Of a DNA stretch of 64,000 nt, positions 2,196 through 53,507 are shown piece after piece. How positions within the stretch are numbered: position 1 is the first letter of the stretch; the number at the start of each line of letters is the position of its first letter. The translations under genes and the position numbers were made by a program. Source of the DNA: Pseudanabaena sp. PCC 7367 (lineage in GTDB: Bacteria; Cyanobacteriota; Cyanobacteriia; Pseudanabaenales; Pseudanabaenaceae); assembly GCF_000317065.1 (NCBI RefSeq), contig NC_019701.1:4164001-4228000 (forward strand), written 5' to 3'. The notes under the pieces are model-generated. The model was not told the DNA's origin and made no database searches. It saw only the letters and a program-made list of their open reading frames with translations.

Positions 2196-2541
2196 TTACC
2201 CCCAATTGGTTAAGTTTTTGGTTGACCCCTTGTTAGATAAGCAAGATGCTTTGAGCATTCACTGTGAAGTAAACAACAAGGGCGATCGCGTTTGGGTCAG
2301 GATTGCCTTCGATCCCAATGATAAAGGCCGAGTTTATGGCAAAGGGGGGCGGACAATTCAGGCGATCCGCACTGTGATCCAAACCGCTGCCAAAAGTGCT
2401 GGCCAAAATGCCCATTTTGAAGTGTTCGATCCAGAAGGTAGTAAACCACCTAGCCGATCTAACAATCGTGCCAATAATCGTGCCAATAATCGTGATGGTA
2501 ATAATCGTCGTCCATCAAGAGGGCCATCGCGGCGAAGATGA
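2188..2541 (+). CDS. khpA: KH-domain RNA-binding protein (KhpA/YlqC family)
   Basis: The product is a small cytoplasmic RNA-binding protein with a single KH fold. The KH signature GKGG sits at residues 51-54, followed by the helix [11 protein letters not shown]. The GTG at 2188 is preferred because it gives the family-like start (M)[10 protein letters not shown] and an 8-bp overlap with rpsP. A TTG at 2176 would extend the protein by four residues. The C-terminal 27 residues are an Asn/Arg repeat tail ([11 protein letters not shown]...) encoded by short tandem repeats of aatcgtgcc(aat), ending in basic residues. This extension beyond the normal family end (about 80 residues) could add non-specific RNA affinity. 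Its TGA stop overlaps the cinA ATG in an ATGA. Confidence 0.9.
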
Positions 2542-3803
2542 ATGCGGCAATAGCAGAAATTATTTGTGTTGGTACTGAGTTGCTGTTGGGAGAGATCCTG
2601 AACAGCAATTCGCAGTATTTGGCGCAACAACTTGCCACCCTGGGCATCACGCACCATTATCAAAATGTGGTTGGTGACAATAAAGAGCGCCTCCAAAAGA
2701 CCCTGGCGATCGCCGCTGGCAGAGCGAATTTAATTATTTTTACGGGTGGTTTGGGGCCGACCCCCGATGACTTGACCACGGAAGCGATCGCGGAATTCTT
2801 TGATGTGCCGCTGGTGGAGCAACCAGAAGTCTGGGCAGATATTCAACGTAAATATGCTTCGATCGGTCGCCAGGTGACTGCCAACAATCGCAAGCAAGCC
2901 CTTTTGCCTCAGGGCGCAGAAATTCTACCCAATCCGATCGGCTCTGCCCCTGGCATGATCTGGCAACCTACGCCAGGTTTGCTGATTCTTACTTTTCCGG
3001 GCGTGCCTGCGGAAATGCAGATCATGTGGCAACAGACAGCAGTAGATCTATTGCGATCGCAACGCTTATCAACGGAAACCTTTTTCTCGCGGGTGCTGCT
3101 TTATTGGGGCATCAGTGAATCCCAGCTAGCAGAGCAAGTCCAGCATTTGTTTGCCAGCCAAAACCCCACCCTGGCTCCCTATGCCAACTTTGGCCAGGCA
3201 CGCTTGCGGATTACGGCCAGAGCTGAAAATCAAGCCGCTGCTGAAAAATTAATTGAGCCGGTTCAAGCGGAAATCCTGAGCCTGACCGGAGAATATTGCT
3301 ATGGCAACGATCACGATACTTTGGCCAGCGTGGTAGGCAAGCTATTAATCCAACATAATCAGACCCTGGCGGTGGCTGAATCCTGTACTGGTGGGTGGTT
3401 AGGGCAAATGCTTACCGAAGTGCCTGGTAGTTCTGCCTACTTCCTAGGGGGGATCATTAGTTATAGCAATGCCGTAAAAGCGGACTTGTTAAATGTTAAT
3501 CGTGACGATCTCGATCGCTATGGTGCAGTGAGCACTCAGGTAGCGGAGCAAATGGCGATCGGCGTAAAACAAAAACTCCAAAGTAATTGGGGCATAAGCA
3601 TTACCGGGATTGCTGGGCCCGATGGTGGCAGTGCCCAAAAGCCAGTTGGTTTGGTTTATATTGGCTTAGCCGATCCAGAGGGAAATGTGGATGCGATCGA
3701 AGCCCGGTTTAGTCCTTCCAAAGGCAGAAATTGGGTCAGAAAGCTGAGTGCTTACTCAGCATTAGCCCGTTTAAGGAAAAGATTTGTTATGATTGGTGTA
3801 TAA
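2538..3803 (+). CDS. cinA: CinA family protein (competence/damage-inducible, NMN amidase domain)
   Basis: The 421-residue protein has an N-terminal molybdopterin-binding-like (MoCF/COG1058) domain starting IICVGTELLLGEILNSNSQ, with FTGGLGPTPDDLT near 70-82. A C-terminal CinA/PncC-type domain follows from about residue 265 (VAESCTGGWLGQ, SYSNAVK, GIAGPDGG). The family hydrolyses pyridine-nucleotide by-products such as NMN and ADP-ribose, which gives a role in NAD recycling. The name comes from its induction with competence genes. The length matches full-length two-domain members. The ATG overlaps the upstream KH-gene stop by 4 bp, so it is translationally coupled to it. Confidence 0.95.
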   Translation: MNAAIAEIICVGTELLLGEILNSNSQYLAQQLATLGITHHYQNVVGDNKERLQKTLAIAAGRANLIIFTGGLGPTPDDLTTEAIAEFFDVPLVEQPEVWADIQRKYASIGRQVTANNRKQALLPQGAEILPNPIGSAPGMIWQPTPGLLILTFPGVPAEMQIMWQQTAVDLLRSQRLSTETFFSRVLLYWGISESQLAEQVQHLFASQNPTLAPYANFGQARLRITARAENQAAAEKLIEPVQAEILSLTGEYCYGNDHDTLASVVGKLLIQHNQTLAVAESCTGGWLGQMLTEVPGSSAYFLGGIISYSNAVKADLLNVNRDDLDRYGAVSTQVAEQMAIGVKQKLQSNWGISITGIAGPDGGSAQKPVGLVYIGLADPEGNVDAIEARFSPSKGRNWVRKLSAYSALARLRKRFVMIGV

Positions 3804-3832
3804 TTGCAAAAATAGATTAGAGGTTACTAATA

Positions 3833-3970
3833 GTGAAGTCTATAGGTAAAATCTTACGAGAGCTCGGAGACATGATTGGTCGTTTGATCGATACTCTAGT
3901 TGGTGGAAGGGAACCTGAGCCTCAATTGATTCCCATCCCAGTTAGAAACAACGATCGCCGCACTCGCTAG
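3833..3970 (+). CDS. Small basic conserved-looking protein, 45 aa
   Basis: This short open frame begins with GTG at 3833, preceded by an AGAGG ribosome-binding site about 9 bp upstream, and sits 29 bp after cinA. The product begins MKSIGKILRELGDMIGRLID. It forms an amphipathic helix and then a Pro/Glu segment GGREPEPQLIPIPVRNNDRR with a basic end. I do not know its function. Support comes from the good RBS, co-directional spacing after cinA, HIP1-rich coding-like composition, and a helix-plus-Pro motif that resembles small cyanobacterial proteins I have seen but cannot name. No signal peptide or membrane segment is visible. Confidence 0.6.
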   Translation: MKSIGKILRELGDMIGRLIDTLVGGREPEPQLIPIPVRNNDRRTR

Positions 3971-3976
3971 ATCTTT

Positions 3977-4018
3977 AAGGTTTAGTTAAGAAGGTTTAGT
4001 TAAGAAGGTTTAGTTAAG
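3977..4018 (+). repeat. Tandem repeat, 3 x 14 bp
   Basis: Three perfect head-to-tail copies of AAGGTTTAGTTAAG begin 6 bp after the stop of the small gene. The array forms no hairpin and has no T-run, so it is not an obvious terminator. It is one of several short tandem duplications in the spacers of this window. Confidence 0.9.
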
Positions 4019-4863
4019 GTAGTTCAGTACATAGATATCCAACAATGTTTGAATGTCGCTGACTATCGTTGAAACCAAATATTTATACGTTACGTTGTCA
4101 TAACTATTGACTATTAGTTATCTATGTCTAGTCACAGCAGAGATAACGGATCTTCCTGGCTGTATGTAGTTTTGATTAATGCAAAATTGAATAGACAAGA
4201 TATAGCTTGCTTAGATCGATCGGGGCGCTTCATCCTGAATTGATGAGCAAGTTTTTTGTTTATCTGTAATATTACTTGTTCGGTAATTATTAAGTCTTGG
4301 AACATTGCTGATACTAGCACGTCATTAACTGGGATCAGCAAATATCAATTGCTTTCGCATTTTTGTCCAAGATAAACCAATGATTGATAGCAGTCGGCAA
4401 GATTGATTATGCTTCAAATCATCCCTCAGATAGGCAATGCCAATGTTGCTGCTCATAGGTATTATTTGATTCCTTCAATTAGACGAAAATTGTTAATCAG
4501 CCCCGTCTTATGTTAGATTGAACACTCAATCAGCCTCGATCGAATAAGCAAGCAAACTCTAGCTACGATCTACGACTTATTAACCACTATTAATCAGTTA
4601 ATCAGTGAAAATCATTGATAATGATCGCTGGGGCAATAAGTCAATCAAAAGCTAAGGCAATTAAATTATTCGTTAGATTATTTAAGTAAATTTCATTAAT
4701 TCGATTGACAGAAACATATTGACGATTGGATGGTTAGGCATTGAATTAGCTAAACTTTATTGAGCTATTTCGTTGCACCAAATCAACTAAATAAGTAAGT
4801 CAATATTACGCACCATAGCGAAACATCAGCCACTAGGCGCTAGTTGAACATTTAGGTTTAAAT
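4019..4863. other. Long AT-rich spacer, no gene seen
   Basis: About 845 bp lie between the small gene and the conserved unknown at 4864. A 69-codon minus-strand frame (4132-4341) has no recognisable motif. The stretch contains a 15-bp palindrome ATCATTGATAATGAT (4611-4625) that resembles a Fur-type half-site arrangement. Nothing else with structure was found. Confidence 0.5.
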
Positions 4864-5211
4864 ATGGCTAGGTATACCCAACATTATGTGATTGCGATCG
4901 GCCAGGAAAAACTAAAACCAGCGATCGTTAATAGCCTAGAGGCCTGTAATCTTGCTGTAATTTATGTTAGTGATGATTATTTTATGGCGCGCGAGGTGGG
5001 CGGCAAAATCTCATTTACTAAATTAGTAACAGTGGAAGTTCTGGTTAATCAAACGGAAATGCCAGAGGATAAAATCAAACTTACCTGCGTTACCAAAAAT
5101 GAAGAGCTACCATTAAAGCTGGATAACCATTGCAGTCAAATGGCGGAGGTGGTGGGTAATGCATTTAAACAAAACGAAAGCTGGAATCTACTCGAAGCGA
5201 TCTCTGGCTAG
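4864..5211 (+). CDS. Conserved hypothetical protein, 115 aa
   Basis: I do not recognise a named family. The protein begins MARYTQHYVIAIGQEKLKPA, has no signal peptide or membrane segment, and looks like a small alpha/beta protein. Hydrophobic strands alternate with acidic helices, and the mid-segment is MAREVGGKISFTKLVTVEV. It contains two isolated cysteines and no metal-binding motif. It lies 29 bp upstream of smpB on the same strand, so the two are probably cotranscribed. Being unknown, it could equally have a role unrelated to ribosome rescue. Confidence 0.75.
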   Translation: MARYTQHYVIAIGQEKLKPAIVNSLEACNLAVIYVSDDYFMAREVGGKISFTKLVTVEVLVNQTEMPEDKIKLTCVTKNEELPLKLDNHCSQMAEVVGNAFKQNESWNLLEAISG

Positions 5212-5240
5212 TAATTATTTAACTTGATTGAAGCAGTTGA

Positions 5241-5699
5241 ATGGGAAATTATAACCGCACATATGTAGACAATCGGAAAGCAAGGTTCAATTACGAAATC
5301 CTAGAAACCTTTGAGGCAGGAATTGAACTGAAGGGGACTGAGGTTAAATCAATCAAGGCCGGGCAGGCAAACCTGAGCGATGCCTATGCGATTATTCGCA
5401 ATGGTGAGGTGTTGCTACTAAACCTCCACATTTCTCCTCACAAGACCACCAGTGAGTTTTTTAATCATGATCCCAGGCGCACCAGGCGATTGCTGATGCA
5501 TAAAGAACAGATTAGAAAGTTAATTGGCAAGATCGAACAAAAGGGGCTGACATTAGTGCCCCTCAAGGTATATCTAAAGAATGGTTGGATTAAGGTGGCG
5601 ATCGCCTTGGCTCGCAGTAAAAAACTTTACGACAAACGCGAAGCAATCAAGAAGCGTGAAGACAAACGTGAGATCGCTAGAGCGATTAAATATAACTAG
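5241..5699 (+). CDS. smpB: SsrA-binding protein SmpB
   Basis: SmpB binds tmRNA (SsrA) and delivers it to stalled ribosomes for trans-translation. The 152-residue length is normal. Family signatures are present: NRKARFNYEILETFEAGIEL, GTEVKSIKAGQANLSDAYA, the HDPRRTRRLLMHKEQI segment, and the basic C-terminal tail that folds in the mRNA channel (KKLYDKREAIKKREDKREIA). The ssrA gene itself is not in this window. The start ATG 5241 gives the usual short N-terminus. Confidence 0.97.
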   Translation: MGNYNRTYVDNRKARFNYEILETFEAGIELKGTEVKSIKAGQANLSDAYAIIRNGEVLLLNLHISPHKTTSEFFNHDPRRTRRLLMHKEQIRKLIGKIEQKGLTLVPLKVYLKNGWIKVAIALARSKKLYDKREAIKKREDKREIARAIKYN

Positions 5700-5912
5700 T
5701 ATTCAGCCAAATTGCAGTAAAAGGATCAAAAACAATGAACCTATATATCCTATGGCAAGTTACGAACTTAGCTTAGATATATAGGTATTGCTGTTTTGAG
5801 AATTATTCAAACCGCAAAATAATATGGGTATTAATTCCGATTGGTGGAGTCTCTTGCGCGAAGAAATCAGCCAATATTATTTTAAAAGTTAAATTGATCA
5901 AGCAAGAACTAA

Positions 5913-6887
5913 CTATCTAGCTTGACCAGATTCAACAAGCGATCGCTCATCTTCTTGACTTGCCACTTTTCCATTCGTAGGTGAATTCAATTTGTCAGAC
6001 TTTGCAAATGCTTGCCAAAAGCTGAGCCGATGTGATTCTGTGCTTTCAGTTTTTCCATCCGGTGCCATCAACCATAACCCGAATACGGGAAATAGACCCA
6101 AAAGCAAGCCTAAGAAAATTGGTGGATAGATGTCAGCCGAGGCGGAGATGATCAATGCAAACACAAAATTACCGGCATAGAGTAACGCTGGATAAACTAG
6201 TTGTTGCTTGGTGAGTGTCGGCTGCTCCTGTTTGCCCCACAATAGCGAAGCGATCGTCATAAACACAGTGCCAGTGAGCATCCAGCCAGCAAAGTTCTGA
6301 AACGGCATCCCGAAAAATGCGCCGGGTTGATGCCACTCCCAGAATGCAAACGAAGCTTGACTCATCGCTGGATCAAGCACGAAATCCCAAGCTGTGAGCA
6401 TCATTGCCCCTAGCAAGATTGCCTCTACCCGCTGCAACCAATGGGTTCCCTGCCGCAAAGACACATTTGCCAACAATAGGCAAACAAATCCCATATAGAA
6501 CCAGGACAAGGGGATCGTAAATGGTACCAAATCGGCAACCTTTGTGCCCAAACCGCTCAAGTAGGCATAATCCCCAAAGGGAAAGCCAGTGCTGGTGCCA
6601 AGGAGTTCGCTACCCAGGGAAATAGTGACCGCTGGGATAAAAAACGCCAGTGTTTTTTTGATGCCGATCGTCCCTATGCCATACATAAACGCCGCGATCG
6701 CACCCAGGATCATAAATACAGCGCCACCGCCAACCATGCCCCAAGCAAAGAGGTTCATCCCAAACTCAGGGAGATTGCTAATAAATTCAGCATTAGGCAA
6801 CACCAGCAATAAGCCTGCCAGTCCAAATAACATTGCTGCCATATGCATGATCAGCGTGGCCCACTGCCAGAAAACAAATCGCCTCAT
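5913..6887 (-). CDS. cruF: Carotenoid 1',2'-hydratase CruF
   Basis: This integral membrane protein of the carotenoid-biosynthesis (DUF422/CruF) family hydrates the psi end of gamma-carotene-type intermediates on the route to myxol glycosides (myxoxanthophyll), normally together with the glycosyltransferase CruG. The sequence shows 324 residues with seven or eight hydrophobic segments. Motifs typical of the family are GTSTGFPFGDYAY near 100 and AWDFVLDPAMS near 170, followed by FWEWHQPGAFFGMPFQNFAGW. These carry conserved acidic and aromatic residues. The last 50 residues are a hydrophilic tail. No cruG lies next to it here. A GAGGAG ribosome-binding site precedes the ATG by about 9 bp. Confidence 0.9.
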   Translation of the reverse strand: MRRFVFWQWATLIMHMAAMLFGLAGLLLVLPNAEFISNLPEFGMNLFAWGMVGGGAVFMILGAIAAFMYGIGTIGIKKTLAFFIPAVTISLGSELLGTSTGFPFGDYAYLSGLGTKVADLVPFTIPLSWFYMGFVCLLLANVSLRQGTHWLQRVEAILLGAMMLTAWDFVLDPAMSQASFAFWEWHQPGAFFGMPFQNFAGWMLTGTVFMTIASLLWGKQEQPTLTKQQLVYPALLYAGNFVFALIISASADIYPPIFLGLLLGLFPVFGLWLMAPDGKTESTESHRLSFWQAFAKSDKLNSPTNGKVASQEDERSLVESGQAR

Positions 6888-30586: not shown

Positions 30587-32725
30587 ATGTTAAAGCTATT
30601 GCGGTCTCAATCCCTTCTCATGCGTGGGATTGCCATTTTTGTGCCTCTGTTGTTAGCTAATAGTGGCTTGTTTATGCTGATCCATCGTAACCAGTTGCAA
30701 GCGGAAAAAGAAAACCTTGCCACGCGCACTGCTAGACAAATCGAGCAGAGGAAACTTGCCTTATTGGGGGGGGTTCGGGAAGTTGTGGCGGATCTTAATT
30801 TTCTGGCCAATCATTCAGATATCAGCACCCTGGGCGCATCGCTGCTCCAACCACCAGATGATGGGGAAACTGTGACAATCTTCGTCAATAGTCTGCGCCA
30901 AAAATTAAACCGCGACTTTTTTCTATTTGTCGATCAAAAAAAGTTATATACAATGGTTCGACTTATCGATCGCCAAGGACAAGAGATAGTTAGAATTAAC
31001 CTCAATTCAACCAATGAACGTCCTGAGGTAACGCCGATCGATGAACTACAAGATAAGTCTTCTCGGTACTACTTTCAAGAGACAATCCAGCTAGGGAAAA
31101 ATGAAATTTTTATTTCTCCATTCGATCTCGCTAAGGATCTCGGAAAGGTAAAGCGCCCCTTCCTTCCGGTGATTAGGTTTTCTACCCCTGTTTATAGTGC
31201 ACAAGATGACAAAGCTGGCATTTTGATCCTCAGTGTGTTTGGCGAAATTTTGCTCAACGAAATCGATCAACGCGAAACAGGCAATGAAGAAGAAGGACAA
31301 ACGAATGAATTTATGCTCCTCAACGCCGAAGGTTATTGGTTAAAGGGCTTAACCCCCGAAGACGAGTGGGGGTTTATGTTTGACCAAGGCCAGGATCGCA
31401 CCTTTGCCAATGCCTACCCCCAAGTTTGGCAGAGCATGCAGACCGAAGTAACTGGGCATATCGAAACCACTGCAGGGCTATTTATTTTTAGCAATATCTC
31501 ACTTCTAGCCGAAGTGCAAAAAATTACCAATCAAGCAGTCAGAGGGGTTAATGTGGATGGTAGTGCAAGCTACAGTTGGCGAATTGTTGCCTACGTTTCC
31601 CCCCAGACATTGGCTGGCTTATCCAACCAGATTTATGCTCAACTTTTGCCCATATACCTTGGCATTGTTGCCATCCTGGCTATTGCTACTCTGATTATTT
31701 TAAGACAGTTACAGGCGGCCGAAAAAACTCAAGCCCGCATCGATGTCGGGGTGATGGCGGCTGAGAAAATTGCGGCAGGCGATCTGACAGTTCACTTTGA
31801 TACCGTCGACACCAGCGATGGGCTCAATCGGCTATTTGAGGCATTTGAGTATACGACCCAAAGTCTGAGCAAATTGATTGGGCAGGTGCAGCGGTCTGGG
31901 GTTGAGGTGACCACATCTAGCACCCAACTAGCTTCCAACAGCCAACAGCTCCAAGCTACTATGACTGAACAGGTTGCCACCACCAGCGAAATTATGTCCA
32001 CAACCCAGCAAATTGCTGCCACATCTGAAGAATTATCCAAAAACGTCAGTCGGGTTGCTGACGAGGTTGCTACCACTGCGTTTACTGCGGATCAGGGGCT
32101 GTCTGAATTGCAACAAATGAAACAAACGATTCAGCAACTGTCCGCTGCCACCGCGGCGATCGCCAATCGGCTGGGATTGATCAGCGAACGGGCAAATATG
32201 ATTAATATGGTTGTCACTACGATTACCAAAGTTGCCGACCAAACCAATCTGCTCTCTTTGAATGCGGCGATCGAAGCCGAAAAAGCGGGTGAATATGGCG
32301 CTGGCTTCTCGGTGGTGGCCAGAGAAATTCGCCGTCTGGCCGATCAAACTGCCGTTGCTACCCTGGAGATCGAAACGATGGTAAATGAGATGCAGTCTGC
32401 TGTTTCCACTGGGGTGATGGAAATGGATAAATTCACCCAGGAGGTTAACCAGAGCGTGAATAGTATTGAAAGCATTAGCCAGCAGGTCGCGCTGGTAATT
32501 GAGCAAGTGCAAAACCTGACTCCCAAGTTTGCCGAGATTAATCAAGGGAGCGAGAACCAATCCCTGGGAGCACAGCAAATTAGCGAGGCGATGGGGCAAC
32601 TGAATGACGCTTCCCAACAAACTGCTAAGTCTATGCAAGATGGCACTAATACGATCGCTAACTTGCAACAGGTTGTGCAAGGACTGCAACAGGAAATTTC
32701 CCGCTTTAAGATGGCTCAAGGCTAG
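30587..32725 (+). CDS. Methyl-accepting chemotaxis protein, Cache-HAMP-MCP (WspA-like receptor 2)
   Basis: Second receptor of the cluster, 712 residues. Membrane segment 1 (about 8-30) precedes a large extracytoplasmic region of about 320 residues with double-Cache character (MVRLIDRQGQEIVRIN, SRYYFQETIQLGKNEIFISP, FMLLNAEGYWLKG). Segment 2 lies at about 354-376, followed by HAMP and an MCP domain nearly identical in motif content to receptor 1 (KVADQTNLLSLNAAIEAEKA, AREIRRLADQTAVATLEIE, STGVMEMDKF). The two MCP halves are clearly paralogous while the sensor domains are unrelated. This indicates duplication of the signalling half with a swap of the input domain. Cache domains usually bind small organic ligands; the ligand here is unknown. 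Confidence 0.92.
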   Translation: MLKLLRSQSLLMRGIAIFVPLLLANSGLFMLIHRNQLQAEKENLATRTARQIEQRKLALLGGVREVVADLNFLANHSDISTLGASLLQPPDDGETVTIFVNSLRQKLNRDFFLFVDQKKLYTMVRLIDRQGQEIVRINLNSTNERPEVTPIDELQDKSSRYYFQETIQLGKNEIFISPFDLAKDLGKVKRPFLPVIRFSTPVYSAQDDKAGILILSVFGEILLNEIDQRETGNEEEGQTNEFMLLNAEGYWLKGLTPEDEWGFMFDQGQDRTFANAYPQVWQSMQTEVTGHIETTAGLFIFSNISLLAEVQKITNQAVRGVNVDGSASYSWRIVAYVSPQTLAGLSNQIYAQLLPIYLGIVAILAIATLIILRQLQAAEKTQARIDVGVMAAEKIAAGDLTVHFDTVDTSDGLNRLFEAFEYTTQSLSKLIGQVQRSGVEVTTSSTQLASNSQQLQATMTEQVATTSEIMSTTQQIAATSEELSKNVSRVADEVATTAFTADQGLSELQQMKQTIQQLSAATAAIANRLGLISERANMINMVVTTITKVADQTNLLSLNAAIEAEKAGEYGAGFSVVAREIRRLADQTAVATLEIETMVNEMQSAVSTGVMEMDKFTQEVNQSVNSIESISQQVALVIEQVQNLTPKFAEINQGSENQSLGAQQISEAMGQLNDASQQTAKSMQDGTNTIANLQQVVQGLQQEISRFKMAQG

Positions 32726-32889
32726 CGAATATATGGCAGTAGGCTGTCATACAATGTTGCATAAGATTGTATAAGATTGCATAGATGAGATGGTTACTAG
32801 ATTCGAACTGCTTAGGGTATTTGCCTTCAGCCCAAGCCCTGACTGAGTGCCTGGAAACATAGAAAAACGCATCAGCGATAGGTAAGACC

Positions 32890-33606
32890 ATGAGCAATGA
32901 TTGCTGGAATCAAATAGGCGTATGGGGCGATCGCACTTGCCCAGAATTAGCCAACTTTACCCATTGCCGCAATTGCTCGGTCTATGCCAAGGCCGGACGT
33001 GGATTGCTAGAGCGCGCAGTCACCACAGCATATATGCAGGAATGGACAAATCTGCTAGCCAAGCCTAGTGCTGAACGCGGGGGGCAACGATCGGGCGAAA
33101 CGATCGCAGTGGCAATTTTTCGATTGGGACGCGAATGGCTAGCACTGCCCGCGAACCTATTTAAGCAAGTAACATCGCCGGAGCCGGTGCATATCCTGCC
33201 CCATCGCAGCAATCAAATTTTGCGCGGTATTGTCAATGTGCGCGGTCAGCTATTGTTATGCATCTCCTTGGCCGATCTGTTGCATGTGGAAAAAGCGACC
33301 CCGACGATCGCTAATAGTTCCATCGCTAAAACCACGACCACTGACGTAGCGATCAGTAAAGATGTCAGCCCGATCGTATATCGGCGCTTGCTGGTAATTG
33401 CCCAACAGGGTGAAGACTGGGCCTTTGAGGTGGACGAATTTTATGGCATTCAACGATTTGCCAGCGAAGAACTGCGATCGGCGCCGACAGTGGTAGCCTC
33501 AGCCACCGAGACCTATACCCGCTGCATTGTACCCTGGCAAGCTAGAAACGTTAACTATCTGGATGCACAACGGCTATTGCAGACCTTAACCGAAAAAATC
33601 CTATGA
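32890..33606 (+). CDS. CheW-domain coupling protein, WspD-like with N-terminal Cys motif
   Basis: Scaffold linking receptors to the CheA-type kinase. The N-terminal 45 residues carry four cysteines in CWNQIGVWGDRTCPELANF followed by HCRNCSVY, a motif I know from WspD-type CheW proteins. It could bind a metal, possibly Zn. Residues about 72-235 are a CheW domain with the strand pairs typical of the fold (FRLGREWLALPANLFKQV, GIVNVRGQLLLCISLADLL). A Thr/Ile/Ser insertion lies near 140-155. It ends in an ATGA overlap with the CheA-type kinase gene at 33603, so translation is coupled. A relic copy of its start lies at 30.4 kb. Confidence 0.9.
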   Translation: MSNDCWNQIGVWGDRTCPELANFTHCRNCSVYAKAGRGLLERAVTTAYMQEWTNLLAKPSAERGGQRSGETIAVAIFRLGREWLALPANLFKQVTSPEPVHILPHRSNQILRGIVNVRGQLLLCISLADLLHVEKATPTIANSSIAKTTTTDVAISKDVSPIVYRRLLVIAQQGEDWAFEVDEFYGIQRFASEELRSAPTVVASATETYTRCIVPWQARNVNYLDAQRLLQTLTEKIL

Positions 33607-36035
33607 CCAGCGACACACCAGATTGGAGCAATTTTTCCATGTTGGAGTTGTTCCGCATGGAGGTAGAAAGCCAGGTGGCAATTCTGGTGGAATGCCTATT
33701 GGCACTAGAGCACTGTGGCCAGTCAGATAGTTGCGATCGCGCTGAAATTGACAAAATGCTAGAGTCGCTGATGCGGGCGGCTCATTCAATTAAGGGGGCA
33801 GCTCGGATTGTGCAAATTGAAGCGGCGGTGGAAATTGCCCATCGGCTTGAAGATTGTTTTGTGGCTGCCCAAAAAGGTCTATTTCATCTCGATTCTGAGC
33901 GCGTTGATATTTTGCTCAATGGGGTAGATTTACTCGCTCAAATTGGTCGTCTAGAAGAAGCTGAATTAACTACCTGGTGCGTCGATCATCAAAAAGTAGT
34001 CGAAGGGCAAACTGCCGCGATCGCCGCAATTACTAGCGCGCCATTAATACCAGAATCATCTACCCCAGCTACTCAGGCTCCCCCAACCACAGATGCGCCA
34101 ACGATTTCACCCAGTGATGTACCGCAATCTACTCCATCTCCACCCACGATCGCCCTGGAACCAAACCCAACTGAAAGCCAATCCCATCAACCTCCCCAGC
34201 CGCAGACCAGCCAGCAATCGAGCCAGCCAGCCAGCCAGCAAGTAGCGATCGAAAATCCAGTTACACCCACCACCGCCAAACCCACCATTCCCGATCGGGT
34301 AGTGCGCATCAGCGCCGACAACCTCAATCAACTGATGGCATTAGCTGGTGAATCACTGGTAGAGGTCAATTGGCTGCAACCATTTTCTGATTCTTTATTG
34401 CAACTCAAACGTCGTCAGCAGGAACTATCCCGCCGTCTCGAAAATTTTCAGTCGGTGCTTGCTGATGTCAGCCTAAATCCCAGCGTTGCCCAATCTCTGG
34501 GTGAAATGCAACAAAAGTCCCGCGATTGCCATGAATTATTGAGCGATCGCCTGAATGATCTAGAACTGTTCTCCCGCCGCTTTACCAATTTATCTGACAA
34601 CCTCTACCGGGAAGTAATTGCCAGTCATATGCGTCCCTTTGGTGATGGCGTGCAGGGGTTTCCGCGCATGATCAGAGACCTGGCTAAGCAATTGGGCAAA
34701 CAAGCACGTCTAGAAATTAGCGGCCAGTCCACCCAGGTGGATCGGGATATTTTAGACAGGCTGGAAGCACCGATCACCCAGATGCTGCGTAATGCGATCG
34801 CCCACGGGATTGAAGCCCCTGCCGCCCGCCTGGCAACTGGCAAACCAGAAATCGGCACAATTCGCCTAGCCGCCACCCATCGTGCTGGCATGTTAGCAAT
34901 TACGGTGGAAGACGATGGTTGTGGCATCGACCTGGATCAGTTGCGGCAATCGATCGCTGCCAAAAAACTGGCCAACGCCGATGTGATTGACCGCCTTTCC
35001 GAAACAGAACTAATGGAATTTTTATTCTTGCCGGGATTTACCACTACTGAGCACATTACCGAAATTGCCGGACGCGGGTTTGGTCTTGATATTGCCAAAA
35101 GTATGGCTCAAGAGGTGGGTGGCTTCCTGCGTGCCTTCACCCAAGCTGGCCAGGGCACCACCTTTCGCTTCCAATTACCCTTAACCCTGTCGGTAATTCG
35201 AGCTTTGCTGGTGGAAATTGCTGGCGAAGTCTATGCCTTTGGACTCACCCGCATCGATCGGGTGTTAACCATCCAGCGAGAAGCCATCTTCGTGGCCGAA
35301 AATCGCCAGTATATTGTAGTAGACGAACAAAATATCGGCCTGGTCTCTGCTGGTCAGGTTCTGGAATTGCCAGATCCAGGGCGCGAAGAAAGCTCGCTAT
35401 TGTCAGTCGTGGTGATCGAAGATCAATCCGATCGCTATGGCCTAGTCGTCGATCGCTTTTTGGGGGAGCGGGATCTGGTTGTCCGTCCCCTCGATCCGCG
35501 CCTGGGCAAAGTCAAAAACATTAGTGCCGCCTCGTTGATGGGCAATGGCTCACCTTTGCTAATCATTGATACTGCCGATCTGGTGCGATCGATTGATAAT
35601 TTAATTTCCGGTGGCAATCTCAATTTAATTGGCAATGATGAAGCGGCAGCCACCGAACGCGATCGGCAACGGGTTTTAGTCGTAGATGACTCGATTACGG
35701 TGCGGGAAATGGAACGCAAACTACTCCAAAATAATGGCTATGAGGTTGATGTTGCCGTCAATGGCGTAGAAGCATGGAATGCGGTGCGCATGAGCAACTA
35801 CGACCTGGTGATTTCTGATATTGATATGCCGCGCATGAATGGGATTGAATTAGTAGAGCAGATTAAATCCCACCCAAAGTTAAAATCTATTCCCACCATT
35901 ATTGTGTCTTATAAGGATCGAGAGGAAGATAAGATCGCTGGCCTTAAAGCTGGTGCAAATTATTACCTCACCAAAAGCAGCTTTCATGATGACAGCTTAA
36001 TTAATGCAGTTGTAGACTTGATTGGCAAGTCTTAG
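33603..36035 (+). CDS. Chemotaxis histidine kinase CheA fused to receiver (WspE-like)
   Basis: Central kinase of the pathway, 810 residues. The N-terminal HPt domain carries the phosphorylatable His61 in AAHSIKGAARIV. A long Pro/Gln/Ser/Thr linker spans about 145-230. A dimerisation region (about 240-345) precedes the HATPase with N-box LRNAIAHGIE (about 394-404), EDDGCGID and GRGFGLDIA. A CheW-like domain (about 525-670) and a C-terminal REC domain (about 685-805) follow, with DDS near 695 and phospho-Asp739 in SDIDMPRMNG. Architecture and order match WspE. The stretch CVDHQKVVEGQ and the rest of the P2-like linker have no clear fold. It is coupled to the WspD-like gene by a 4-bp overlap. 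Confidence 0.94.
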   Translation: MTSDTPDWSNFSMLELFRMEVESQVAILVECLLALEHCGQSDSCDRAEIDKMLESLMRAAHSIKGAARIVQIEAAVEIAHRLEDCFVAAQKGLFHLDSERVDILLNGVDLLAQIGRLEEAELTTWCVDHQKVVEGQTAAIAAITSAPLIPESSTPATQAPPTTDAPTISPSDVPQSTPSPPTIALEPNPTESQSHQPPQPQTSQQSSQPASQQVAIENPVTPTTAKPTIPDRVVRISADNLNQLMALAGESLVEVNWLQPFSDSLLQLKRRQQELSRRLENFQSVLADVSLNPSVAQSLGEMQQKSRDCHELLSDRLNDLELFSRRFTNLSDNLYREVIASHMRPFGDGVQGFPRMIRDLAKQLGKQARLEISGQSTQVDRDILDRLEAPITQMLRNAIAHGIEAPAARLATGKPEIGTIRLAATHRAGMLAITVEDDGCGIDLDQLRQSIAAKKLANADVIDRLSETELMEFLFLPGFTTTEHITEIAGRGFGLDIAKSMAQEVGGFLRAFTQAGQGTTFRFQLPLTLSVIRALLVEIAGEVYAFGLTRIDRVLTIQREAIFVAENRQYIVVDEQNIGLVSAGQVLELPDPGREESSLLSVVVIEDQSDRYGLVVDRFLGERDLVVRPLDPRLGKVKNISAASLMGNGSPLLIIDTADLVRSIDNLISGGNLNLIGNDEAAATERDRQRVLVVDDSITVREMERKLLQNNGYEVDVAVNGVEAWNAVRMSNYDLVISDIDMPRMNGIELVEQIKSHPKLKSIPTIIVSYKDREEDKIAGLKAGANYYLTKSSFHDDSLINAVVDLIGKS

Positions 36036-46186: not shown

Positions 46187-47689
46187 ATGCTTACCTCCGA
46201 CCTGGCTAATCAAAATGCTCAAAATGCTCAGGATTGGCGATCGCTAGCCCAGCAGTTTGCCCAAATTGTTGGCGATCGTTATGTGGTGCGCACCCAGGAA
46301 GAGTTGATTGCCTATGAGTGCGATGGATTAACCAGTTATAAGCAACAACCCGCCCTGGTGGTATTACCAAAAGATACCGCAGAAGTCGCGGCAGTGGTGA
46401 AGGTATGCGATCGTTATCAAGTACCATTTGTGGCCAGGGGAGCCGGGACAGGATTATCTGGTGGCGCATTGCCGCTAGCTGATTCGGTGTTGATTGTGAC
46501 GGCAAGGCTAAAGCAAATCCTGGATGTAGATCTAGCTAATCAGCGGGTCGTGGTGCAACCAGGAGTGATTAATAATTGGGTGACCCAGGCCGTGAGTGGT
46601 GCTGGGTTTTATTATGCCCCCGATCCTTCCAGTCAAATCATTTGCTCGATCGGAGGGAATGTGGCGGAGAACTCCGGTGGCGTACATTGTCTTAAATATG
46701 GCGTAACCACCAATCATGTCTTGGGCTTGAAAGTAGTATTGCCCAACGGTGAGATTGTTAATATTGGGGGCAAAATCCCAGAAATGCCTGGCTATGATTT
46801 GCCTGGTATTTTAGTAGGTTCGGAAGGTACATTGGGAATTGTCACGGAAGTCACCTTAAGAATTCTCAAGGCGGCAGAAAAGATCCAGGTTTTCCTGGCT
46901 GATTTTGATAGTGTGGAAGCAGCGGGAGCTACGGTATCAGATATCACTGGGGCTGGCATCATTCCTGGTGGCATAGAGATGATGGATAATATGAGCATCA
47001 ATGCGGTTGAGGATGTGGTGGCTACCAACTGCTATCCCCGTGATGCGGCGGCGATCCTGCTGGTGGAACTGGATGGAATGGCGATCGAAGTGGCCGAGAA
47101 TGCCAAACAATTGGAAGCAATTTGTTATAAGAATGGCGCTCGGAATTTAGTTTCGGCGACCGATCCAGCAGAGCGAAATATTTTATGGAAAGGTCGCAAG
47201 GCAGCGTTCGCGGCAATGGGGAAACTCAGCCCCGACTATTATGTACAGGATGGAGTAATCCCGCGCACCAAGTTACCTTACGTGCTCAAGGAGATCGCTA
47301 ACCTGGGTGAGAAGTACGGACATTATGTAGCAAATGTATTCCATGCTGGTGATGGTAATCTGCATCCGCTGATTTTGTATGATAACTCTGTGCCTGGGCA
47401 ATTGGAACGGGTTGAGGAACTGGGTGGTGAAATCCTGAAGCTATGCGTGGCCGTGGGTGGTAGTATCTCTGGCGAACATGGAATTGGTTCCGATAAGCGC
47501 TGTTATATGCCAGAAATGTTCAGTGAGGCTGACTTGGAAACAATGCAGTGGGTAAGGCGATCGTTCGATCCCAAAAACATCGCCAACCCAACGAAAATAT
47601 TTCCCTCACCACGAACTTGCGGCGAGGGAGCGAAACCTCTATCGAAAGAAGAATTAGAATCGAAGTTTAAGAACGTACCACGATTTTAA
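46187..47689 (+). CDS. glcD: FAD-linked glycolate dehydrogenase subunit GlcD
   Basis: FAD-dependent oxidase/dehydrogenase oxidising glycolate (or D-lactate) to glyoxylate, the second step of photorespiratory 2-phosphoglycolate salvage in cyanobacteria. The 500 residues comprise the PCMH FAD domain (VARGAGTGLSGGALPLADSV, IGGNVAENSGGVHCLKYGVT) and the C-terminal cap domain with GDGNLHPLI and GEHGIGSDKRCYMPEMFS. The length fits GlcD. GlcE and GlcF are not adjacent, which is usual in cyanobacteria. D-lactate dehydrogenase of the same family cannot be excluded from sequence. It ends just before a convergent sensor-kinase gene. Confidence 0.88.
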   Translation: MLTSDLANQNAQNAQDWRSLAQQFAQIVGDRYVVRTQEELIAYECDGLTSYKQQPALVVLPKDTAEVAAVVKVCDRYQVPFVARGAGTGLSGGALPLADSVLIVTARLKQILDVDLANQRVVVQPGVINNWVTQAVSGAGFYYAPDPSSQIICSIGGNVAENSGGVHCLKYGVTTNHVLGLKVVLPNGEIVNIGGKIPEMPGYDLPGILVGSEGTLGIVTEVTLRILKAAEKIQVFLADFDSVEAAGATVSDITGAGIIPGGIEMMDNMSINAVEDVVATNCYPRDAAAILLVELDGMAIEVAENAKQLEAICYKNGARNLVSATDPAERNILWKGRKAAFAAMGKLSPDYYVQDGVIPRTKLPYVLKEIANLGEKYGHYVANVFHAGDGNLHPLILYDNSVPGQLERVEELGGEILKLCVAVGGSISGEHGIGSDKRCYMPEMFSEADLETMQWVRRSFDPKNIANPTKIFPSPRTCGEGAKPLSKEELESKFKNVPRF

Positions 47690-47865: not shown

Positions 47866-50865
47866 CTATAGAAAGCTACTACGACCAGGTTCAAGCTCTG
47901 AACTGTTAAATTTTTCTGGTAGCTGGATTGTGAAGGTAGAACCTTGGCCAAGCTCACTTTTGACCGTGATCTTACCGCCTAAAAACTGACAAATTTTGTT
48001 AGTGATTGCCAGCCCCAAGCCAGTGCCACCATACTTACGGGTAATTGAATTATCTGCTTGGGTGAAGGGAGCAAATAGTTCTGGCAATCGCTCCGGTTCA
48101 ATGCCAATACCATTATCGCTTACGGAGAAAATCAAGTAGCGATCGCCATGATGTTCCTGTGGCAATTCTAATTGAGAATCTGAAGACGCTGAAGAAGCTG
48201 GGGCTTTAGGCTCAACTTGCATATTAGTTTGGGAAACTTGCAAAGTTGTTAGCAACTCACCAAAACTATCCCTTGCTGGCTCTGCGATCGGCTCAGTTAA
48301 CCCATAGACCGAGAGCGTAATTTCCCCATCGTGGGTAAACTTACAGGCATTACTGAGAAGGTTATAAATGCATTGCCTGATCTTTGTCAGATCGCCATAC
48401 ATATCGGTTAAATCAGGTGCGCAACTAACCACAACTTTGTTATTATTTTTTTTCGCCTGCATCTGAATACTAGAGGCGAGTTCATCAACAAGCAAGCGTA
48501 CGTCAAAATCCTCTAAATATAAAGACACTCGTCCCGCTTCGATCCGACTGATATCCAGAATGTCATTGATCAAATTCAACAGATGCTTACCCGAAGTGCG
48601 AATCCTTTCTAAGTCTTCAACAATTTCTTCATGTCCCCATTCCACCACTTCTTCCTGCAAAACTTCCGTATAGCCAATAATTGCATTCAACGGAGTGCGC
48701 AATTCATGGCTCATTGTAGACAGAAATACATTGCGGGCTTTATAGGTTTTTTCGATCGCCTCCTTGGCATTTTTGAGCATGACTTCCGATTGCTTCCTGT
48801 CAGTAATATCACGAGCCACCCAAACCACCTGGTTCTCAAGCATAGGTGAAATACTGGCCGCAAACCAGATCTCCTGATCATTAATTTCTAGACTGTACTC
48901 AACTGGAATAGTCTGCTGGGAACGCAATGCTTTTCTAACATAGGCCATTAATTCATCGGCCTTATGCTTTGGCATCACTTCATAAATGGTGCGACCAAGC
49001 ATCTCTTCTGGAGCCAGGTATAAAACATCTGGATTGGTGGGAGCAACTTCTAGATACCGACCTTCATGATCTAGAACCAGAATTACATCGGTGATTGCCC
49101 TAAACAATGCCCTTAGCTCGGCCTCGGCATGCTGACGATCGGCAATTTGCGATTGCAGACTTTTATTGGTCGTAACTAGCTCCTGAGTGCGTTTAGAGAC
49201 TTCTGTCTCTAGATCAGCCGTAATTTTATGTAGTTCTGTTTCTGCATGTTTATAATCAGTAATATTCCGCACAATCCAGGCTACCCGATTTGCTGAAATT
49301 GGCGAAACCCGCGCAAAGAACCAGGTTTTCTGTTCGTTAATGTATAGGTAATATTCTATTTCCTGGGTGGTTTGACGATCGAGGGCAATCTGAATAAAGC
49401 GGTGATACATCTCTGCCTGTTTATGGGGCAGCACTTCATATACACTCTTGCCTATTTGCGATTGGTGGTGATCTACCAGATAACTAGGATCCGTAGGAGC
49501 AATCTGAAGACAATAGCCCTGCCGATCGAACACCAGAATCACCTCATCTATGATTGCCAGCAAAGTTAAGAGATCAATTTCCTCTTCATTACCACTAGCA
49601 GAGGGTTGAGCTGTATAGAGAGGAAGTTCCCTGGCATAGGTAGCCTCGGTTTGAGTGCTTGCGGGTTGATTCTGGTGAGTTGCACTAGTCTGGCTAAATT
49701 GAGCCAATAAATTAGTAATCAAAGATGATGAGGTATTTGTTACCCCTAACCAGGGTTGTGGTTCAATTTGCCGATCGCTTTCATATACTAATTTGAGCTG
49801 CCCATCTGGTTCAACTAAACCAATCCGACATGATTTATGAGTGTGTCGATCGGTGGCAAATTTGATCATGCCGCTGGGAGCCGGAAAGTCTATGTTTTGG
49901 CTGGCCATAACAATCTGTTCGGGGGCAAATGAGCCCACCACTTCAGCGGCTAGCTTCCATAGATAGATCTGGGTATAGGCAGTTTCGATCGGCGCAGAGG
50001 TAACTCGATCGGCACCATAATGAGCCTGGAAATTCTGGACAAACTGTTGATTCTCTTTGCTATCAAGACGCTGGAAGTAGCTGCTACAGCCATAATGGCC
50101 GATCGCTACAATTGGGTCAATTTGTTGTAACTCAGCTTCAGTTAAATTCAGCGAAATGATGGTGAAATCACTAGCCTCAACCCCAGTTTGGCTATACTGG
50201 CTATAAAAATCGATCGTATTAAAACTACTCATCAGATTGAAAACAACTGTCGCCTTACTCTGTTTAACTTGCTGGGCGATCGCGGCAAAATCAATGTGAG
50301 CGGTTCCCCAGGGCAAAACATAAACCTCACCAGCCAGGGTTTGATTATATTCTTGGAGCAGTGCTTTGAGGATGTTACTAGTGGTACGCGAAAAAATAGT
50401 ATTGTCACCGAGCAAAAAAATACTTTTATCTTCGGTTTGGGTTAATTGTTGGTCAAAGAGCCATTTAAGCGCAGGCTCTAACAATTGGTTGGCACAAGAC
50501 CCAGTATAAAAAACATGCTGACTTTGCTCTAGTCCTTCATAGGCAAATGGATACCAAAAGGAACAATCGGCTTGATCAATTAATGGAATTACGGCCTTGC
50601 GGGTTTGCGAAGAACCACCACTAAAAATTGCCACCACCCGATCGTGATGGATCAATTGGCTTACTTGTTCAGTAAATTTGGTTGGCTCAGCACTGCTATC
50701 CCTGATCACTGGTTCAATTGCTTTACCAAGTACGCCACCACCAGCATTGATCTCGGCGATCGCTAGCAATGCCGCATCTCGCATCGGCAACTCTGCAATC
50801 GAATCGCTCAAAGAGTTAAGAATACCAACTTTTACGGTGGGGGAATTTGCAGAATCGATCGCCAT
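47866..50865 (-). CDS. Cytosolic hybrid sensor kinase: UrtA/AmiC-like receptor domain - PAS - PAS - histidine kinase
   Basis: 999 residues. The N-terminal ~390 residues resemble the type-I periplasmic-binding fold of short-chain amide and urea receptors (VGILNSLSDSIAELPMRDAA, INAGGGVLGKAIEPVIRDSS, YPFAYEGLEQSQHVFYTG). There is no signal peptide and no membrane segment before or after it, so the sensor should be cytoplasmic, like AmiC. Two PAS domains follow (about 435-550 and 600-700; repeated VLVFDRQGYCLQI and ILVLDHEGRYLEV wording). HisKA has His720 in TMSHELRTPLNAIIGYTEVL. HATPase motifs include NLLSNACKF, DNGIGIEPERL and GGTGLGLAITNKICQFLGGK. No REC domain follows, so it needs a separate response regulator, not visible here. 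Confidence 0.85.
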   Translation of the reverse strand: MAIDSANSPTVKVGILNSLSDSIAELPMRDAALLAIAEINAGGGVLGKAIEPVIRDSSAEPTKFTEQVSQLIHHDRVVAIFSGGSSQTRKAVIPLIDQADCSFWYPFAYEGLEQSQHVFYTGSCANQLLEPALKWLFDQQLTQTEDKSIFLLGDNTIFSRTTSNILKALLQEYNQTLAGEVYVLPWGTAHIDFAAIAQQVKQSKATVVFNLMSSFNTIDFYSQYSQTGVEASDFTIISLNLTEAELQQIDPIVAIGHYGCSSYFQRLDSKENQQFVQNFQAHYGADRVTSAPIETAYTQIYLWKLAAEVVGSFAPEQIVMASQNIDFPAPSGMIKFATDRHTHKSCRIGLVEPDGQLKLVYESDRQIEPQPWLGVTNTSSSLITNLLAQFSQTSATHQNQPASTQTEATYARELPLYTAQPSASGNEEEIDLLTLLAIIDEVILVFDRQGYCLQIAPTDPSYLVDHHQSQIGKSVYEVLPHKQAEMYHRFIQIALDRQTTQEIEYYLYINEQKTWFFARVSPISANRVAWIVRNITDYKHAETELHKITADLETEVSKRTQELVTTNKSLQSQIADRQHAEAELRALFRAITDVILVLDHEGRYLEVAPTNPDVLYLAPEEMLGRTIYEVMPKHKADELMAYVRKALRSQQTIPVEYSLEINDQEIWFAASISPMLENQVVWVARDITDRKQSEVMLKNAKEAIEKTYKARNVFLSTMSHELRTPLNAIIGYTEVLQEEVVEWGHEEIVEDLERIRTSGKHLLNLINDILDISRIEAGRVSLYLEDFDVRLLVDELASSIQMQAKKNNNKVVVSCAPDLTDMYGDLTKIRQCIYNLLSNACKFTHDGEITLSVYGLTEPIAEPARDSFGELLTTLQVSQTNMQVEPKAPASSASSDSQLELPQEHHGDRYLIFSVSDNGIGIEPERLPELFAPFTQADNSITRKYGGTGLGLAITNKICQFLGGKITVKSELGQGSTFTIQLPEKFNSSELEPGRSSFL

Positions 50866-51296
50866 TAATCGTTGCCATATTAAGTGTTTAGGCAGCAGTA
50901 AAAATATGAAAAGCGCAATAGTTACACTTTTTTGATTATTATTATTTAATTATTATTTAACCGGATTTGAACCGACAGAGTAATAGTTGCAGATCAGGTT
51001 AACTATTAACACTATTAACTTAAGTAGTCGCAGACCAGGGTTTATAGTTCCGGAAATTTTGACTAAAAGTTGTTTACTGAGGCTGAATCAGTTTCTGAAC
51101 GTCTAATTAATCCATTGGTCTAAGGCCATGACATCAACCATCAATGCCAGATAAAAATGCCAGATCAAATAGTAGCCGGAGCCAGGAAAACCTGCTTCCA
51201 TTATTACTATTGCTCAACATGATGCTTTAGTCTAGATAACCTGGCAGTTATCTCGGTCACACTCAACAAACCAGAGCAAATCTGATTTCTGATTTT
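50866..51296. other. Spacer between two minus-strand genes
   Basis: About 430 bp of AT-rich DNA, including an ATTATT/TTAATTATT-rich patch around 50940-50960. It carries the sensor-kinase upstream region. No gene, RNA or clear terminator is seen. Confidence 0.5.
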
Positions 51297-52520: not shown

Positions 52521-53507
52521 GTGAATCCAGTTGACTACCTGCGCATTAGCCTGATCGATCGCTGCAACTTCCGCTGTACCTACTGTATGCCCGAAGAGGC
52601 AGAATTTGACTATATTCAATCCCAACAACTGCTCAGCAATGACGAGCTAGTTGCACTCTTGGGTGAGGTATTTATGCCACTGGGCTTTTCTAAATTTCGG
52701 CTCACGGGTGGTGAACCATTGCTGCGCAAGAACCTGACCGAGTTAGTAGAATCGATCGCCAATTTGCCGGGGCTCCAGGATCTCTCCATGACCACCAATG
52801 GTTATTTGCTGCCCACAATGGCACAACCGCTCTATGATGCGGGTCTACGCCGGATTAATATTAGTCTTGATTCCCTGGATGCAGGCATATTTAAGCAAAT
52901 TACCGGGCGCGATCGCTGGCAACAGGTATGGCAAGGTATTTTAGCTGCCTATGCAGTGGGTTTTGATCCGCTTAAACTAAATGTGGTGGTGATTCCCGGC
53001 GTAAACGATCGTGAGGTGCTGGATTTGGCGGCATTGAGTATCGATCGTGCCTGGCATATTCGCTTCATTGAATTCATGCCGATCGGTAATTCCCCTTTGT
53101 TTGACAGCGTTGGTTGGATTGATTCCGCTACTTTACGCGAGCAAATTAGCGATCGCTATGGCCTATTCGAAAGTAACTGCAAAGGCAACGGCCCAGCGGA
53201 TGTGTTTCAAATTCCCAATGCCAAAGGGACGCTAGGGTTTATTAGTCAAATGTCGGAATGTTTTTGCGATCGCTGTAATCGAATTCGCCTCTCGGCCGAT
53301 GGCTGGCTGCGACCTTGTTTGCTGAATGAATCGGGGCAGATCGATCTTAAATCTTTACTACGAGAATCGGAGCCAGATTTCACCCAGATTAGAGCCCAGG
53401 TGAGGCAGTTATTAATCGACAAAGAAGCAATTAATTTCAAAGAGCGCGATCGCGGTGTAGGCGATCAATCTACCTATCGTCGTACCATGTCACAAATTGG
53501 GGGTTAG
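52521..53507 (+). CDS. moaA: GTP 3',8-cyclase MoaA (molybdenum cofactor biosynthesis)
   Basis: Radical SAM enzyme that, with MoaC, converts GTP to cyclic pyranopterin monophosphate. The 328 residues start with GTG 52521. Radical-SAM cysteines C15, C19 and C22 lie in RCNFRCTYC, and the GGEP motif is in [14 protein letters not shown] second C-terminal cluster is bound by [19 protein letters not shown]. The protein ends in the conserved GG ([11 protein letters not shown]), needed for activity in homologues. No other moa genes lie close by. Confidence 0.95.

Follow-up and report, generated by a model that had tools for sequence, protein, structure and literature searches.

We favour, with moderate confidence, the reading that the kinase encoded in the window (the whole stretch of 64,000 nucleotides of Pseudanabaena sp. 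PCC 7367 analysed here) is a soluble orphan sensor kinase and belongs to a family of cytosolic UrtA-like proteins, found mainly in cyanobacteria, whose canonical members would sense urea while the pocket of the window kinase has been remodelled for another small nitrogenous or amide-like compound. Leader-less UrtA-like domains placed N-terminal to signalling outputs have seldom been noticed. In the open-access literature, to which the search was confined (subscription papers were not covered), we found no description of cytosolic UrtA-like sensors, and a review of c-di-GMP sensors names SBP_bac_3 as the sole member of the PBP clan that has been investigated in such networks (PMC8846402).

Domain layout and fold of the window kinase

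The positions of the gene, its domains and its pocket residues are collected in Table 1. Between them the PAS domains share 40% identity over 117 aa (E 2e-32). In the kinase part we found SHELRTP with H720, the N box NLLSNACKF, DNGIGI, LFAPFTQ and GGTGLGL, and Pfam assigns HATPase_c to residues 906-984. These are the features of an orthodox histidine kinase, i.e. a HisKA with its phospho-acceptor His and a HATPase with N, G1, F and G2 boxes. Pfam, the identity of the PAS pair and the kinase motifs bear out the PAS-PAS arrangement and complete HisKA-HATPase of the original prediction.

Table 1. Positions, in window coordinates, of the kinase gene, its domains, its pocket residues and the upstream frame
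Feature	Position	Strand	Remark
Window kinase gene	47866..50865	(-)	Single intact 999-codon frame, ATG start at 50865; UrtA-like domain without leader, PAS, PAS, HisKA, HATPase
UrtA/AmiC-type Venus-flytrap domain (Peripla_BP_5), residues 11-375	49741..50835	(-)	Pfam E 3.2e-97 and AlphaFold2 fold matches
First PAS domain, residues about 429-545	49231..49581	(-)	Second PAS_4 stretch (Pfam) and identity to PAS 2
Second PAS domain (PAS_4), residues 588-692	48790..49104	(-)	Pfam
HisKA, residues 711-778, phospho-acceptor H720	48532..48735	(-)	Pfam and motif
Kinase ATP-binding part, N box (residue 835) to HATPase_c end (984)	47914..48363	(-)	Pfam and motifs; N box and D box separated by an insert
Pocket segment, residues 84-110	50536..50616	(-)	G84 (UrtA W120), S86 (S122), Y105 (Y141), A108 (Q144), E110 (E146)
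Pocket residues T156 (UrtA Y190), F158 (F192)	50392..50400	(-)	Mapping onto UrtA
Pocket residue S213 (UrtA N246)	50227..50229	(-)	Mapping onto UrtA
Pocket residue N240 (UrtA S274)	50146..50148	(-)	Mapping onto UrtA
Hydrophobic in-frame upstream codons (n=28)	50866..50949	(-)	Without ATG, GTG or TTG; judged not translated

The N-terminal part was modelled with AlphaFold2 (residues 1-392; mean pLDDT 88.2, pTM 0.89). The solved folds closest to the model are the urea-binding protein of Caldicellulosiruptor (8tg1, Z 48.9), UrtA (7s6e, 8hic and 7s6f, Z 47.1-47.5) and AmiC (1pea, Z 44.8), and a sequence search of solved structures with the same domain returned 8tg1 first (E 4e-85), then UrtA 7s6e, 8hic and 7s6f, then AmiC. 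The UrtA/AmiC-type domain proposed at first is therefore upheld by Pfam, by sequence matches and by the predicted fold, and the fold comparison proposed along with it ranks the urea-binding proteins best.

The window domain has its fold and sequence family in common with the UrtA-type urea-binding structures (7s6e, 7s6f, 8hic and 8tg1; 32-38% identity) and retains 55 of 95 near-invariant UrtA positions. It nevertheless differs from UrtA in several respects: it is fused to a kinase, its pocket is altered, and the protein scores 327.6 bits with the NCBIfam UrtA model TIGR03407, under the cut-off of 492.75. UrtA proper has a leader and is linked to urtBCDE elsewhere in the genome, whereas the window protein has neither. 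AmiC of Pseudomonas aeruginosa (1pea, 1qnl, 1qo0) is a clamshell of the same family and a cytosolic sensor, 27% identical to the window domain, with which it shares only S, Y and E among the nine pocket positions considered below. It is a stand-alone protein of an amidase operon that controls its partner AmiR (ANTAR), while the window domain is joined to a kinase and has no such neighbours.

The binding pocket and its probable ligand

In Prochlorococcus UrtA nine residues surround urea (W120, S122, Y141, Q144, E146, Y190, F192, N246 and S274); hydrogen bonds come from S122, Q144, Y190 and N246, and urea binding is abolished in the W120A mutant (PMC10392092). Mapped onto UrtA, the window pocket is composed of G84, S86, Y105, A108, E110, T156, F158, S213 and N240, and 4/9 residues are retained: S86, Y105, E110 and F158. 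W is replaced by G84, Q by A108, Y by T156, N by S213 and S by N240, leaving one of the four hydrogen-bonding residues. The loss of all ligand-contact residues, which the original prediction would have taken as evidence against itself, is thus not observed. Urea is nevertheless not the obvious ligand because five of the nine residues are replaced, including three of the four that form hydrogen bonds. In the reading that we favour, the pocket would be remodelled and roomier than the canonical one. Since the Trp and three hydrogen-bonding residues are gone while Ser, Tyr and Glu are kept, the window kinase most likely senses some other small polar metabolite instead of urea.

Relatives of the domain are of two sorts, free (about 400-470 aa) and fused to outputs (about 570-1600 aa). 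All nine pocket residues are present in 21 of the 53 entries for fused proteins, a few of these entries being one gene present in two collections. The free UrtA entries of the comparison set are all 9/9 except the cut-off fragment L106, in a set fetched partly by a pattern covering Y141-E146, so that those positions are biased. One locus (L171, 2665-8877) carries two soluble UrtA-like kinases side by side on one strand, with pockets of 9/9 and 1/9.

Two of the fused proteins with a 9/9 pocket can be set beside the window protein. The first, L039 (778 aa), is encoded in the same genome, where the close UrtA-like proteins number three: this second soluble kinase, the window protein and a true UrtA, which carries a leader. 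The true urtA lies about 50 kb from the window, with ureG ahead and urtB-C-D-E behind. L039, like the window protein, is a soluble kinase whose UrtA-like input domain lacks a leader (the two domains are about 40% identical), but it differs from it by its intact pocket, by passing the UrtA model cut-off (504.5), by the absence of a detected PAS and by its kinase subtype. A few kb downstream of this kinase, on the same strand (L039 locus, 2420-4897), lie genes for CheW and for regulators of the CheY and PatA type, with intervening Uma2-like genes.

The second, the soluble L038 kinase of Pseudanabaenaceae cyanobacterium MP8IB2.15, is the nearest relative of the window domain (45-47% identity); L038 and L109 are one contig in two collections. 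In contrast to the window gene it lies, with its 9/9 pocket, between urea genes, in the order urtE (1413-2165), kinase (2203-4509), ureD (4510-5388), ureA (5427-5729) and ureB (6290-6607), all on one strand; ureD begins at the nucleotide (4510) that directly follows the stop codon of the kinase gene (last base 4509). This urea-operon locus is the strongest evidence we have, and it supports the view that canonical members read urea; those with the 9/9 pocket most likely sense it inside the cell. The nitrogen link of the original prediction thus stands for the family, through this relative between urtE and ureDAB, but its urea-like ligand is, as stated, not supported for the window protein. Urea genes were found beside fused genes at this locus only, while some 45 free UrtA loci served as a positive control and most free UrtA loci adjoin urea genes. 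This lone fused gene in a urea context, which is not that of the window, counts against our preferred explanation.

The soluble kinases L038 (2203-4506) and L039 (7012-9345) score above the NCBI UrtA model cut-off, and automatic annotation can label such kinases "urea ABC transporter substrate-binding protein".

In the members with a 9/9 pocket that were tested, pocket retention is above the background identity to UrtA (P about 0.0005-0.003; 0.0014 for L038 and 0.0023 for L039). The 4/9 retention in the window pocket is not above that expected from overall identity (P 0.38). Such a background level would also fit a loss of binding, and this is the main rival, improbable but of some weight: the receptor domain would be a scaffold or a protein-interaction surface, and signals would enter via the PAS domains. 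The long branch of the domain agrees with it, as does the mechanism of AmiC, which works by touching a partner protein, AmiR (seen together in 1qo0). However the domain is full-length and confidently modelled, many near-invariant UrtA positions are kept, as are S86, Y105 and E110, and related cyclases of Pseudanabaena share a repeated new pattern. These UrtA-like class III cyclases (L041-L056 and others) have, as in the window kinase, a leader-less input followed by PAS and an altered pocket; they differ from it by their nucleotide cyclase output and, for most, by an Arg at the UrtA S274 position. The pocket reads GSYxExYxR in most of them, with Gly at the Trp position, and its repetition suggests, at the level of sequence, that specificity has been changed, not lost. 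Most of these cyclase genes follow a gene for a CBS-HisKA-HATPase-REC protein of about 800 aa (L041-L056, e.g. L042 2650-5052).

It is also rather unlikely that the window domain still senses urea, or a very close analogue, via changed contacts. Its closest folds are urea-binding proteins, it keeps four of the contact residues (S86, Y105, E110 and F158), the organism has urea uptake genes and its nearest relative, L038, is encoded within a urea operon; but of the four residues that hydrogen-bond urea only one is left, G84 stands where the W120A change left UrtA unable to bind urea (PMC10392092), and the same genome already possesses an intact-pocket kinase, L039.

In the preferred reading of a remodelled pocket, the clamshell would sample a small polar metabolite in the cytosol. 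Its closure would change how the linker, PAS and HisKA domains are arranged; the signal, transmitted by the linker and the two PAS domains to the HisKA dimer, would set autophosphorylation of H720. The ligand class, the direction of the signal and the downstream regulator are what we infer for this kinase.

Cellular location and gene neighbourhood

No membrane helix is expected in the window protein because the highest 19-residue Kyte-Doolittle mean is 1.67. The open frame upstream of the gene codes for a hydrophobic stretch, NNNNQKSVTIALFIFLLLPKHLIWQRL, which includes VTIALFIFLLL. Neither ATG, GTG nor TTG was found in these 28 in-frame codons, and none of the fused relatives examined has a hydrophobic stretch before its UrtA-like domain. 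An upstream signal anchor, which would have gone against the original prediction, was rejected on both grounds. Thus, with no membrane helix, an upstream frame lacking a usual start codon and a stretch that is not conserved, the window protein is taken as soluble, as first proposed from the lack of signal peptide and membrane helix, and we infer that it is cytosolic. That an unannotated N-terminal extension exports the domain or anchors it in the membrane is very unlikely: besides the missing start codon and the lack of conservation, an exported receptor needs a second membrane helix ahead of the kinase, and hydropathy gives none.

No response regulator adjoins the window gene, so that the search for a partner recommended by the original prediction had no adjacent candidate to offer; the nearest receiver-domain genes in the window, encoding a CheA-like protein (33603) and a REC-kinase (38666), are both more than 7 kb off. 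A cognate regulator may be encoded at an unlinked site. MCP, CheW and CheA-like genes stand in a row at 30587-36035 of the window, as a chemotaxis-type cluster. The neighbours of the kinase gene are a GlcD-like FAD oxidase gene (46187-47689) and a MoaA-like gene (52521-53507), but the first is convergent and the second divergent, behind an alpha/beta hydrolase gene, and it is hardly credible that the kinase serves them by reporting glycolate metabolism or molybdenum cofactor synthesis. No NtcA box (GTA-N8-TAC) was found in the 400 bp ahead of any of four genes, those of the window kinase, L039, urtA and L038; since urtA itself is without a box, this search says little on nitrogen control.

A family of leader-less UrtA-like modules, putative sensors

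Relatives were sought in the order (38 genomes), in the phylum (386 genomes) and in named genomes. In nearly all free UrtA proteins 32-94 residues precede the domain, and in the fused proteins it mostly starts within the first 20 residues. Judged by the lengths of the open frames, a fused protein is present in 17 or more of the 386 genomes of the phylum and in all but one of the 26 genomes of a sister genus (g6), hence in 25. The cyanobacterial outputs that follow the leader-less domain are histidine kinases (some containing PAS, some GAF, others neither of the two) and hybrid kinases, class III cyclases, GGDEF, GGDEF-EAL and SpoIIE phosphatase. One fused protein (L105 5785-7962, 726 aa) has a C-terminal half without Pfam match. 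In three proteins (L096, L099 and L102) the domain is followed by a two-helix transmembrane hairpin, HAMP and a kinase; it must be cytosolic there because two helices separate it from the kinase, which is inside.

Outside the cyanobacteria, the gammaproteobacterial Candidatus Thiodiazotropha has a UrtA-like hybrid kinase (L121), and no second fusion of comparable length was found in 60 genomes of its order. The gene after this kinase (L121 5555-8731) codes for a hybrid kinase with NIT (nitrate/nitrite sensing), HAMP and PAS domains, which adds a second link to nitrogen.

In a quick tree most of the fused domains group away from free UrtA, but at least two additional fusions (L040; L096/L099/L102) fall on the side of UrtA. 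The window domain lies among other divergent branches, and its long branch (1.86) and lack of a close orthologue make its placement and selective constraint uncertain. The window protein has the group feature, a UrtA-like domain that lacks a leader and stands ahead of a signalling output. As the sequences read, this input is a broad, mainly cyanobacterial module and not a one-off. The original prediction, right on anatomy and location and only in part on ligand class, had missed this membership and the intact urea pocket in the second kinase of the genome.

Substrate-binding-protein sensors are taken to work outside the membrane, with AmiC as the familiar exception. Urea and amides in the cytosol can come from uptake or from the breakdown of arginine and guanidine compounds. 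The family is of more interest than the single window gene, and the pairing of intact- and altered-pocket kinases in one genome makes ligand retuning directly testable. We propose tentatively, as a possibility somewhat short of even, that a cytosolic module derived from UrtA serves cyanobacteria generally to sense urea and related nitrogen compounds inside the cell, with at least six kinds of output, and that the window kinase and the Pseudanabaena cyclases form a branch whose specificity has shifted to a new ligand within the cell. If the family holds, cyanobacteria would read their own cytosolic urea or amide content via kinases, cyclases, c-di-GMP enzymes and phosphatases.
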